Shown piece after piece: positions 24,503 through 28,430 of a stretch of 64,000 nt of DNA. The stretch covers positions 1-64,000 of the forward strand of contig NZ_LT629735.1 in NCBI RefSeq assembly GCF_900104925.1, given 5' to 3'. Below the pieces are notes generated by a model. The model did no database searches. It worked only from the letters and a program-made list of their open reading frames with translations, and was not told the origin of the DNA. The position numbers and the translations under genes were made by a program. Source of the DNA: Opitutus sp. GAS368. GTDB lineage: Bacteria; Verrucomicrobiota; Verrucomicrobiia; Opitutales; Opitutaceae. Position 1 is the stretch's first letter. Every line of letters starts with the position of its first letter.

Positions 24503-24614
24503 GAGCCTCGCGGGCTTCCCGGCCGCACCGGGTCAGGAATAACCTGAAAGGCGTATGCCTTCGGAGTTGTTTCCCAGGGAACCGCGCCTAGGTTGTCGGC
24601 CAACCCATTCCCTC

Positions 24615-25655
24615 ATGTCCACCACCATGCGCGCCATCGTGAAGCCCACTGCCGGCCCCGGCCTCATCATGACCCAGGTCCCGGTGCCCCGGCCGGGCGT
24701 CAACGATGTGCTCATCAAGATCAAGAAGACCTCCATCTGCGGCACCGACGTGCACATCAACAAGTGGGACTCGTGGGCCCAGCGCGTCATCAAGCCGCCG
24801 CTGGTCATCGGCCACGAATATGTCGGCACCGTCGAGGACCTGGGCAACGGTGTCACGGGGTTCACCAAGGGTCAGGTCGTTACCGGCGAGGGGCACATCG
24901 TGTGCGGCCACTGCCGCAACTGCCTCGCCGGCCGCCGCCACCTCTGCCCCAACACCGTCGGCGTCGGCGTGAACCGCGACGGCGCGTTCGCCGACTACGT
25001 TTCCATACCGGCCAGCAACGTCTGGAAGGTGCCCGCCGGCATGGACCTCGACGTCGTCTCCTGCTTCGACCCGCTCGGCAATGCCGTGCACACCACCCTC
25101 TCCTACGACATGGTCGGCGAGGACGTCCTCATCACCGGCGCCGGCCCCATCGGCTGCATGGCCATCGCTGTCGCCAAGCACGCCGGCGCCCGCAAGGTCG
25201 TCATCACCGACATCAACGACGGCCGGCTCGAGCTCGCGAAAAAATTCGGGCCGACGCGCACGGTGAACACCGCGAAGGAAAACCTTTCCGATGTCTGGCA
25301 CAAGGAGCTCGGCATGACCGAGGGCTTCGACGTCGGCCTCGAGATGTCCGGCAGCGCCATCGCCCTGAACCAGATGATCGACAACATGATCATGGGCGGC
25401 CGCATCGCGCTGCTCGGCACGCACTCCGCCAAGGCCGAGGTCGACTGGAACAAGATCGTCTTCAAGATGCTTCACCTGAAGGGCATTTACGGCCGCGAGA
25501 TGTTCGAGACGTGGTATAAAATGACCGCGCTCGTGCAAGGCGGCATGGACATCACGCCCGTCATCACCCACCGGATGCCCGTCGCCAATTTCCAGGAGGG
25601 CTTCGACCTCATGGGCGCGGGCAAGTCCGGCAAGATCGTGCTGAACTGGGAGTGA
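24615..25655 (+). CDS. tdh: L-threonine 3-dehydrogenase
   Basis: The 346-residue zinc- and NAD-dependent dehydrogenase oxidises L-threonine to 2-amino-3-ketobutyrate. The catalytic zinc ligand Cys42 is in [13 protein letters not shown], followed by GHEYVG. The structural zinc site is [15 protein letters not shown]. The Rossmann loop is [20 protein letters not shown] and the C-terminus ([14 protein letters not shown]) is typical of Tdh. E. coli Tdh is 341 residues. The next enzyme of the pathway, Kbl, lies 1.6 kb downstream on the same strand, with an oppositely oriented two-gene unit between. An in-frame ATG at 24627 is an alternative start. Confidence 0.95.
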
Positions 25656-25706: not shown

Positions 25707-26459
25707 TCAGTGCCGCAGCAGCCAGTGCACCAGGCCGCCGGTCGCCAGCGCCAGGCAGGCGGACAGCAGCGTGCCGATCAGCACGTATTCCGCGAACGGC
25801 CGGTCGTCGAGCGCCTTGAAGCGCGTGAAGGCCTTCGCCGCCAGGATGAACCCGATGGCGCCGTATTGGGCCTGCAGGACGAAGCTGTAGAGCAGCACGC
25901 GCTCGAGGATGCCGATGACCCGGCCCCGGTTGAACTCGCCGATGTCGATCGTGCTGCCGTCCGGACGCGCCGACAGAAAGCGCGGCTTCAGGTCCAGCCA
26001 GTCGAAGACCGCCCGGATGACCAGGTTCGCCTCGTTGGCCGAGAGCAACAGGCCGAAAAGCACGAGCTGGAACCGGACACCGCCCAGCACCTGCAGCAAT
26101 GGGGTGAGCACGGTCCAATGCCCGAGGCGGCCACTCCACTCACCCAGCTCCGGCCGGAAGGCCAGGCCCAGGCGCGGGGAAAAACAAATGCTCCACGCCA
26201 CCAGCCCGAGCAGGCCCAGCGCCAGCCGGGCAAAGTCCTTGCGCCCGGCCCGGCGCTCCAGCCGGTAGCCCAGGATGTTCAGCGCGACCACCGCGGCCGC
26301 CGCCGCCAGCCAGACACCGCCGCAGGGGTAAAGCACCGCCAGCGCGATGAGCTCGATCCCCGCCTTGATGCGCCACACCCGCCCGTCCACCGCGTCATCG
26401 CGAAACAGGCTGACGAGCCGGGTGAGAAGCCAGAGGTTGGCGAAGACCAGGAAGTTCAT
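25707..26459 (-). CDS. SatD-linked integral membrane protein (DUF3307-like C-terminus)
   Basis: The 250-residue protein has about seven hydrophobic helices. Its C-terminal third (GRVIGILERVLLYSFVLQ, then AIGFILAAKAFTRF and EYVLIGTLLSA, about residues 165-240) resembles the C-terminus of DUF3307 proteins that usually accompany SatD. The usual N-terminal DUF3307 part is not recognisable here. Its ATG overlaps the satD stop (ATGA at 26456-26459), which implies translational coupling. Function is unknown. It lies convergent to tdh. Confidence 0.75.
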   Translation of the reverse strand: MNFLVFANLWLLTRLVSLFRDDAVDGRVWRIKAGIELIALAVLYPCGGVWLAAAAAVVALNILGYRLERRAGRKDFARLALGLLGLVAWSICFSPRLGLAFRPELGEWSGRLGHWTVLTPLLQVLGGVRFQLVLFGLLLSANEANLVIRAVFDWLDLKPRFLSARPDGSTIDIGEFNRGRVIGILERVLLYSFVLQAQYGAIGFILAAKAFTRFKALDDRPFAEYVLIGTLLSACLALATGGLVHWLLRH

Positions 26460-27100
26460 GGGGTCTTGAGTTCGTGATTCAGCAGACGCGTGATTTCTTT
26501 GCAGAGTCCCTGCAGTTCGTCGAGCGCGGCCGCATTGATATTTTTGTAGACCGCCACATTGCTGATGCGGAGCTCTTTCTCCAGCGTGCCCACCGATTCC
26601 TCCTTGAGCAGGCCCTGCATGATGCGCAGGCGGTTGCGCGTCCACCCATCCATCTTATGGCTCACGAGGTTGAGCAGATGGTTGATGAGTATCCAACGGT
26701 CATAGGCCGCATCCTTGGCGGGATCGCCCTGCAGTCGCAGCAGGTAGGAGGTCTTCTTCAACCCGGTGATGGCCTCGCGGGCCCGGTGAAACGCCGGGCC
26801 GTCCATGCCGAGCGCCTGCTTCCGGTTGATCTCCGTGCTGATCACGCCCACGCCGACCGCGAAGCGGGCCTGCGCGGGATGGATCTGGCACAAGATGGAG
26901 AAAATATCCGCGAACAGCGTGTCGGCCGACTTGTAGACGGCCTGGAATTCGTCGCCGAGCGTGATGGTATAGGGCGAAGCCAGCGCCGGGTTGCGGCTGC
27001 TGATTTCCTTCAAGAAAGCCGCCAGCTCCGTCTGGAACTGATCCCGCCGGGGCAGCGCCTTCGAGTCCACGATGTCGCCGATGAGCGCGAGGTATTTCAT
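26456..27100 (-). CDS. SatD family protein
   Basis: The 214-residue cytosolic protein opens with MKYLALIGDIVDSKALPRRD, the family signature (IGDIxxS). It continues with TITLGDEFQAVYKSAD and VGVGVISTEINRKQALGMDG, which suggest a nucleotide-cyclase-like alpha/beta fold. The C-terminal part (about 165-214; ESVGTLEKELRISNVAVYKN) looks like a helix-turn-helix, so it may bind DNA. The family is named after satD in the Streptococcus mutans secretion and acid tolerance operon; its biochemical role is not established. Base composition is lower in GC than its neighbours. Three palindromic operators lie directly upstream. Confidence 0.85.
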   Translation of the reverse strand: MKYLALIGDIVDSKALPRRDQFQTELAAFLKEISSRNPALASPYTITLGDEFQAVYKSADTLFADIFSILCQIHPAQARFAVGVGVISTEINRKQALGMDGPAFHRAREAITGLKKTSYLLRLQGDPAKDAAYDRWILINHLLNLVSHKMDGWTRNRLRIMQGLLKEESVGTLEKELRISNVAVYKNINAAALDELQGLCKEITRLLNHELKTP

Positions 27101-27111
27101 GAGGCTATGAG

Positions 27112-27185
27112 TTAACCATTTTGGTTAGATTGTCAATATTCTAACCAATTCGGTTAATTTCATCATAATTAACCGAATCGGTTAA
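27112..27185. promoter_or_regulatory. Triple TAACC-N5-GGTTA operator between satD and kbl
   Basis: Three identical-format palindromes occur at 27113-27127 (spacer ATTTT), 27142-27156 (AATTC) and 27170-27184 (GAATC), with centres 29 and 28 bases apart. The block is AT-rich in a GC-rich genome. A possible promoter toward kbl is TTGTCA (27130-27135), 17 bases, GTTAAT (27153-27158). Toward satD, TATGAT reads on the minus strand at 27167-27162. The operators would overlap both, so divergent repression is plausible. The regulator is unknown; the helix-turn-helix-like end of SatD is one candidate. Confidence 0.8.
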
Positions 27186-27239
27186 CCCGGCCGTGCGGGC
27201 CCTTGCCGCGTCCGGTTTTTTCCCAACGCTGGCGGGCAA

Positions 27240-28430
27240 ATGAATTCCGCCTACTCCGACCACCTGACGAAGACTCTCGGCGAAATCGAGGCCGCCGGGC
27301 TTTACAAGCGCGAGCGGATCATCACCACACACCAGACGGCCCACATCGCCGTGGCGTCCGGCCAGAAGGTGCTGAACCTGTGTGCCAACAACTACCTCGG
27401 CCTGGCCGACAACCCGGAGTTGATCACGGCCGCGCGCGAGTCCCTCGACCGCTGGGGCTACGGCTTGGCCTCGGTGCGCTTCATCTGCGGTACCCAGCAA
27501 ATCCACAAGGACCTCGAGGCGACCCTCGCCGGGTTCCTCGGCACCGAAGACACCATTCTCTACTCGTCCTGCTTCGACGCCAACGGCGGCCTCTTCGAGA
27601 CCCTGCTCGGGGCGGAGGATGCTGTCATTTCCGACGAGCTGAACCACGCCTCGATCATCGACGGCGTGCGGCTCTGCAAGGCGCAACGCTACCGCTACAA
27701 GAACAACAATCTCGAGGACCTCGAGGCCAAGCTGAAGGAGGCCGACGCCGCCAAGGCCCGCTTCAAGCTCATCGCCACCGACGGCGTGTTCTCGATGGAC
27801 GGCTTCATCGCCAACCTGAAAGGCATCTGCGACCTGGCCGACAAATACGGCGCGCTGGTGATGGTGGACGACAGCCATTCCGTTGGCTTCATGGGCCGGA
27901 CCGGTCGCGGCACGCACGAACACTGCGGCGTCATGGGCCGCGTCGACGTCTTCACCGGCACGCTCGGCAAGGCGCTCGGCGGCGCCACCGGCGGCTACAC
28001 CAGCGGCCGGAAGCAGATCATCGACCTGCTCCGCCAGCGCTCCCGGCCCTACCTTTTCTCCAACACCATCGCCCCGAGCGTCGCCGCCGCGTCCATCAAG
28101 TGCCTCGAGATGCTCAGCCGCTCGACCGAATTGCGCGACAAGCTCGAGGCCAACACCAGGTTTTTCCGCGAGGGCCTGACCAAGGCCGGCCTGACGATCC
28201 GCCCCGGCACGCACCCGATCGTGCCGGTCATGCTCGGCGACGCCGCGTTGTCGCAGAAGGTCGCCGCCCGCATGCTCGAGAAGGGCGTCTACGTCATCGG
28301 CTTCTTCTATCCCGTCGTGCCGCAGGGCATGGCCCGCATCCGCACGCAGGTGTCCGCGGCGCACAGCCGCGAAGACCTGGAATTTGCCATCAAGGCCTTC
28401 GCCGAAGTGAAGACAGAGTTTGGCTTGTAG
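27240..28430 (+). CDS. kbl: Glycine C-acetyltransferase (2-amino-3-ketobutyrate CoA ligase)
   Basis: The 396-residue PLP enzyme splits 2-amino-3-ketobutyrate with CoA into glycine and acetyl-CoA, the second step of threonine breakdown after Tdh. The PLP lysine is Lys244 in [13 protein letters not shown]. Other family motifs are [25 protein letters not shown] and [13 protein letters not shown]. Length equals E. coli Kbl (398). The stop codon TAG (28428-28430) is part of the family-A repeat that follows. Its promoter probably overlaps the triple operator shared with satD. Confidence 0.96.

Follow-up and report, generated by a model that had tools for sequence, protein, structure and literature searches.

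A conserved operator array upstream of satD and its probable recognition by SatD

The satD locus and its operator sites

The window, the whole 64-kb stretch of DNA analysed here, carries satD on the minus strand (26456–27100). Its product is a member of the SatD family (PF16264, E 1.2e-31; 110.5 bits against a curated cut-off of 29), which takes its name from the satD gene in the sat operon of Streptococcus mutans, and it combines a predicted cyclase/GGDEF-like N-terminal domain with a C-terminal helix-turn-helix. The satD stop codon overlaps, as ATGA, the start codon of a second minus-strand gene (25707–26459) encoding a membrane protein of 250 aa, an overlap suggesting that the two are probably translated together. 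Flanking this pair on the plus strand are tdh (L-threonine 3-dehydrogenase, 24555–25655; NF003808, E 1.5e-164) and kbl (glycine C-acetyltransferase, 27240–28430; NF005394, E 1.7e-201), the two halves of a tdh-kbl pair.

Exactly three matches to TAACC-N5-GGTTA occur in the window (none in 100 shuffles), and all three are positioned between satD (minus) and kbl (plus). Operator 1 (TAACCATTTTGGTTA, 27113–27127, centre 27120), operator 2 (TAACCAATTCGGTTA, 27142–27156, centre 27149) and operator 3 (TAACCGAATCGGTTA, 27170–27184, centre 27177) match exactly and are assigned no strand; their centres are separated by 29 bp and then 28 bp. The island that contains them (27106–27190, 85 bases) has a G+C content of 33%, compared with 66% for the window. 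The initial annotation of three such sites at 28–29 base spacing in an AT-rich island is borne out.

The best promoter candidate in the satD direction, TTGACA-18-ACTCAT, matches 9/12 consensus bases with a poor −10 element. Its probable −35 hexamer, TTGACA (27131–27136, minus strand), lies between operators 1 and 2, and operator 1, the site nearest satD at 20 bp before the ATG, falls within the presumed −35/−10 spacer. The best candidate in the kbl direction, TTGTCA-17-GTTAAT, scores equally (9/12). Both overlap the operators, as had been proposed. From this placement, the satD transcript in the window would start at about the ATG (27100), with little or no leader. In the window's group satD may be leaderless; some Fodinibius-type loci have AGGAGG before the start.

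Conservation and position of the array

We assembled 80 relatives by protein search together with 13 loci from within the family, including the window's own, for a total of 93 loci (L012–L104). One locus without a tblastn match (L104), eight near-duplicates and four loci with a truncated or unusable SatD frame (L074, L075, L078, L089) were dropped, leaving 80 non-redundant loci, the window's own (L092) among them. A motif-free count of the distances between palindrome centres in 79 satD upstream regions revealed peaks at 28 bp (48 pairs, 4.6 in shuffled sequence) and 29 bp (35 pairs, 1.7 shuffled), with echoes near 14, 42–44 and 56–58 bp, the 14 bp echo being one that the symmetry between two palindromes would lead one to expect.

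Arrays of the form NAACY-N5-RGTTN, with two to five sites each, were identified in 43/80 loci. Of the 68 spacings between adjacent sites in these arrays, 30 are 28 bp and 35 are 29 bp (65 together), the remaining three being 55, 56 and 57 bp. The sites had been thought to lie on the same face of the helix for cooperative binding. This does not hold, as 28–29 bp corresponds to about 2.7 turns and not to a whole number, and both steps are in use; we reject same-face cooperativity. When we allowed similar palindromes of whatever sequence, the step was found in 47/80 loci, compared with 1–5/80 in twelve control bands. This added 12 loci, in some of which the half-sites differ, GTGCAG and ATAAG being examples. 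A third, relaxed scan added five more. At least one of the three scans thus detects an array in 60/80 loci, a count to which the later scans, looser and devised after the data had been seen, contribute.

Similar palindromes with a 28 or 29 bp step precede satD in bacteria of many phyla and on plasmids of haloarchaea; the search of other genomes for the pattern gave the same step across phyla with a half-site sequence that varies. The satD promoter region therefore has a conserved operator, with no array by any of the three scans in 20/80 loci, mostly distant ones. Plasmids account for eight SatD records. We looked at five plasmid-borne loci: in four (L138–L141; three haloarchaeal, two of them nearly identical, and one from Sphingomonas) the palindrome list gives palindromes 28 or 29 bp apart together with further half-sites, and in the same list the Agrobacterium plasmid locus (L142) has no such spacing. 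SatD was found in no phage, and none of 17 candidate stretches in viral contigs was confirmed; SatD has no match in the PADLOC defence library, and its best E value against the PHROG phage families is 0.2.

Two groups with other half-sites were noted by eye. In Calditrichota (L071, L073, L074, L076, L087), a SatD recognition helix of the TQPAVSQ type goes with ATAAG...CTTAT-like palindromes, and L071, L073 and L087 pass the array filter. Four loci from genomes of the window's own family (L099–L102) encode a divergent SatD subfamily with an HRTSVERRRRS-like sequence in the tail and have TGTGCA...TGCACA-like palindromes upstream of satD; L102 alone passed the filter.

Genome-wide searches place the array at satD. 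Of 387 genomes of the phylum, three contain a strict array: in the window's own genome and in one other (G003) it lies at satD, and in the third it falls within a coding frame whose 3 kb locus contains no SatD. Two carriers of the divergent SatD (G020 and G064) are without a strict array in this search. A degenerate array occurs in the 4.15 Mb genome of the window only at this satD. We extended the degenerate search to 30 satD genomes. As 29 of them were chosen for an array noted beforehand, this search measures occurrence away from satD and not frequency. An array was found in 28/30, and in 28/28 it starts 45–177 bp before the SatD match. Arrays away from satD number two, compared with four hits in four genomes for a reversed-pattern control. 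We do not claim these two as SatD targets, as they are no more than the control gives; both are of CAACC type, one beside a DNA methylase gene (L171, G522 contig 11) and the other between two phoU genes (L172, G534 contig 222).

We also found six further TAACC-N5-GGTTA sites in the window's own genome (G000:C1, at 184429, 837921, 1690103, 2074524, 2161562 and 3946710), some inside open frames. Each stands alone and is built on a different core: the longer palindrome TTGTAACCYAWTRGGTTACAA is matched exactly by four of them and with one base off by the other two, and these copies are probably the site of another regulator or a repeat element. SatD targets elsewhere in this genome were rejected on these grounds, there being no other array and the six extra sites having another core.

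The position of the array between two divergent genes raises the question of which gene it serves. It had been suggested that the array ties SatD to threonine catabolism, which would hold if it mainly controlled kbl. In six loci kbl is divergent from satD at a distance of 132–155 bp, with tdh on the far side of satD in all six. The kbl-direction candidate in the window overlaps the array, and two more of the six loci also have a candidate scoring 9/12. These six are, however, the only loci of the 80 in which kbl was found next to satD (62/80 have at least 1,500 bp of upstream sequence), and all belong to the window's family or class. Within them the kbl candidates are scattered and not at one place, whereas the centre of the nearest operator always lies 18–20 bp before satD. 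In addition, we examined 14 loci without satD (12 from the same genus and two from other families of the order), in which tdh precedes kbl with a gap of 6–119 bp in 13 and about 450 bp in one (L112). No AACY-type palindrome occurs in the 150 bp before kbl in any of the 14. We therefore give the kbl reading very little chance: the link to threonine catabolism looks positional, the array is satD's and not kbl's, and kbl is probably a bystander on which the array may have side effects.

As relatives without satD have adjacent tdh and kbl and lack the motif, the satD cassette stands in antisense between tdh and kbl and carries its own operators with it. It seems to come and go, since satD was found in 3/24 relatives searched, own genome included. 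Between the window (25707–27100) and L111, whose kbl is 95% identical and which lacks satD, the cassette is present in one and absent in the other at the tdh-kbl site, a difference between close relatives that suggests gain or loss.

SatD and the outer base of the half-site

The AlphaFold2 model of SatD has a mean pLDDT of 96.9. Residues 1–150 of this predicted model share the fold of the nucleotidyl cyclase/GGDEF/palm superfamily: the best Foldseek match is soluble guanylate cyclase (E 2.6e-4, TM-score 0.40–0.43), and VIA gave Z 10.5 to 2qv6 (2.3 Å over 111 residues) and Z 9.2 to 9pd0. A Pfam search of SatD returned no match to cyclase, GGDEF, mCpol or GTP cyclohydrolase III families at E 0.001. 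The acidic residues Asp9, Asp50 and Glu51 do not vary across 73 sequences, which only suggests metal binding. The cyclase-like sensor suggests a nucleotide signal, and the N-terminal domain probably senses a nucleotide. The C-terminal part of the SatD profile matches GerE (1fse) weakly and below significance (E 0.022), with weak matches also to the helix-turn-helix domains of resolvase and UPF0122.

An association between SatD residues and the outermost base of the half-site was noticed by eye, and we then scored every SatD column against this base, using the 41 array loci that alignment A1 includes (of the 43, it lacks L094 and L096). Position 181 in the first row of the alignment, a row without the initiator Met, ranks highest (z 12.4); it corresponds to Val182 of the window's SatD, where the predicted recognition helix begins. 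Columns 184 and 179, second and third in rank (z 11.1 and 7.9), are in or just beside the same helix. Arg at the residue 182 column goes with G in 44/44 half-site letters (9 loci) and Lys with C in 23/24 (5 loci). Val goes with T (36), A (13) and C (1) in 9 loci, and Pro with T (19) and A (9) in 6 loci. Gln (13 C, 8 A and 1 G), Ser, Ala and Thr each go with a mixture of bases, and one exception, L094, has Ser with G in 4/6 letters. In loci outside the scan, counted with a looser pattern that puts no constraint on the outer base, Arg is again paired with G (26/26, 5 loci) and Lys with C (8/8, 2 loci), and one Ala locus has a mixed outer base; these sequences had been viewed before they were counted.

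Relatedness inflates covariation counts, which is why the 15 best SatD columns, many of them far from the helix, all beat each of 200 shuffles. Along a tree built from the N-terminal part, we count four changes in the Arg state and four in the G state. Only three independent Arg–G contrasts fall on well-supported branches, and all three agree (sign test p 0.25). Lys–C is weak on the tree (on average 0.7 of 2 pairs agree and 1.3 do not differ), as is Val–T.

DNA-binding-domain residues of SatD thus covary with the operator, which we take as good evidence that SatD itself probably reads the array. Palindromes of this kind suit many dimeric regulators, and the six other TAACC-N5-GGTTA sites in the window's own genome could be taken to speak for an unrelated regulator encoded elsewhere that controls satD, kbl or both. 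Those six sites are, however, single and built around a different core, arrays away from satD do not exceed the reversed-pattern control in the 30 satD genomes, and the outer base tracks a SatD residue across phyla, in the loci outside the scan as well. We accordingly lend very little credence to an unrelated regulator. Neither an absence of conservation in relatives nor binding by such a regulator, the two outcomes that would speak against the earlier proposal of autoregulation, was found when looked for, and that proposal is now well supported at the sequence level by the recurrent arrays, their near-restriction to satD in the genomes searched and the outer base that follows a recognition-helix residue.

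A proposed autorepressor of satD and its membrane-protein partner

The gene that overlaps satD is a regular companion. A related membrane protein is encoded downstream of satD in 71/80 loci, as detected with a profile built from first-round hits in the same 80 loci. Of the nine in which it was not found, two (L035, L045) have too little downstream sequence and seven (L024, L029, L055, L072, L099–L101) show no partner; a weak match in L102 (E 5e-4) is counted among the 71. The window's partner (25710–26459) gives no Pfam match up to E 1, not even to the candidate family DUF3307 (PF11750), and it has no NCBIfam match. Its C-terminal half does align with a haloarchaeal DUF3307-type partner (hhalign probability 99.4, E 9.8e-22, 107 columns), which itself matches PF11750 through its N-terminal part (E 3.3e-16). 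The partner model is all helical (pLDDT 93.3) and has no significant match in the PDB (best E 0.46).

We conclude that the three palindromes are very probably an operator array for SatD, which would act as a one-component autorepressor of satD and its partner and be released by a ligand. Next to the features computed here (the three sites with their step, the way they are conserved together with satD, the residue–base association, the predicted fold and the gene overlap), we infer a mechanism as follows. SatD would be a transcription factor of the one-component kind and probably dimeric. Its C-terminal helix-turn-helix would read each TAACC half-site with residue 182 (Val) at the outermost base. 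As a step of 28–29 bp is 2.7 turns, neighbouring dimers would face different sides of the DNA, and dimers bound to successive sites would probably wind around it cooperatively. SatD on the array would block the satD promoter, with the −35 element between operators 1 and 2 and operator 1 in the spacer, and the coupled membrane-protein gene would be repressed along with satD until the ligand, presumably a nucleotide, releases SatD.

The direction of control is suggested by promoter geometry in the 43 array loci, where 19 pairs have TTGA[CAT] beginning 16 or 17 bases ahead of the centre of an operator, a count made without a shuffled control; larger TTGA peaks at offsets +5 and −23 stem from the GGTTGA of the operators themselves. 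An operator that often lies within the promoter spacer points to repression, and autorepression of satD and the coupled membrane-protein gene is most likely on this reading of the promoters. SatD could instead activate its own promoter from the array: polymerase might be recruited through operators spaced regularly upstream, and in some array loci the nearest operator centre lies up to 60 bp before the satD start codon. We regard activation as unlikely, given that the 19 pairs put the operator in the spacer, as in the window, and that satD is reported (PMC11323703) to be essential in the S. pyogenes strains tested yet present in 178/249 genomes, a pattern better suited to a repressor of something harmful.

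A harmful-partner repressor would explain the status of satD in S. pyogenes, where the gene could not be lost as long as the partner gene is present; polar effects or other roles are also possible. More broadly, we put forward with considerable reserve that SatD and its membrane partner form a two-gene switch of ancient origin, widespread in both bacteria and archaea. In it, a repressor with a cyclase-like fold that senses a nucleotide would keep in check a membrane protein that is harmful or costly, and would release it when a nucleotide signal changes with phage, starvation or envelope stress. The array would wind around DNA at a fixed 28–29 bp step while the half-site drifts with one residue. 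If true, such a switch would account for satD being essential where present and missing from many S. pyogenes genomes.

The SatD family occupies very little text in the literature library searched. SatD is named as an acid-resistance protein in PMC10326533, and the passages found in the library connect PF16264 to secretion and acid tolerance and not to a transcription factor with operators. No description of SatD as a DNA-binding regulator was found in this library, whose scope leaves out most subscription journals and preprints. The family seems to act as a gene switch that controls itself and is widely distributed, and proteins labelled for acid tolerance would become self-regulating transcription factors with a one-residue DNA code.

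Among known systems, the multi-operator autorepressor lambda CI at OR1–OR3 resembles SatD in having three similar operators in a divergent region that overlap a promoter. The SatD array differs in its 28–29 bp step, in the fold of its protein and in a step that is kept across phyla while the half-site changes. In the model, the N-terminus of SatD shares its fold with class III nucleotidyl cyclases, GGDEF domains, mCpol and GTP cyclohydrolase III but, unlike these, is fused to a helix-turn-helix. SatD has a weak C-terminal likeness to helix-turn-helix regulators of the LuxR/GerE/NarL type, from which its sensor domain differs, and the nearest architecture is probably that of the mycobacterial cyclase–LuxR fusions, such as Rv0386.
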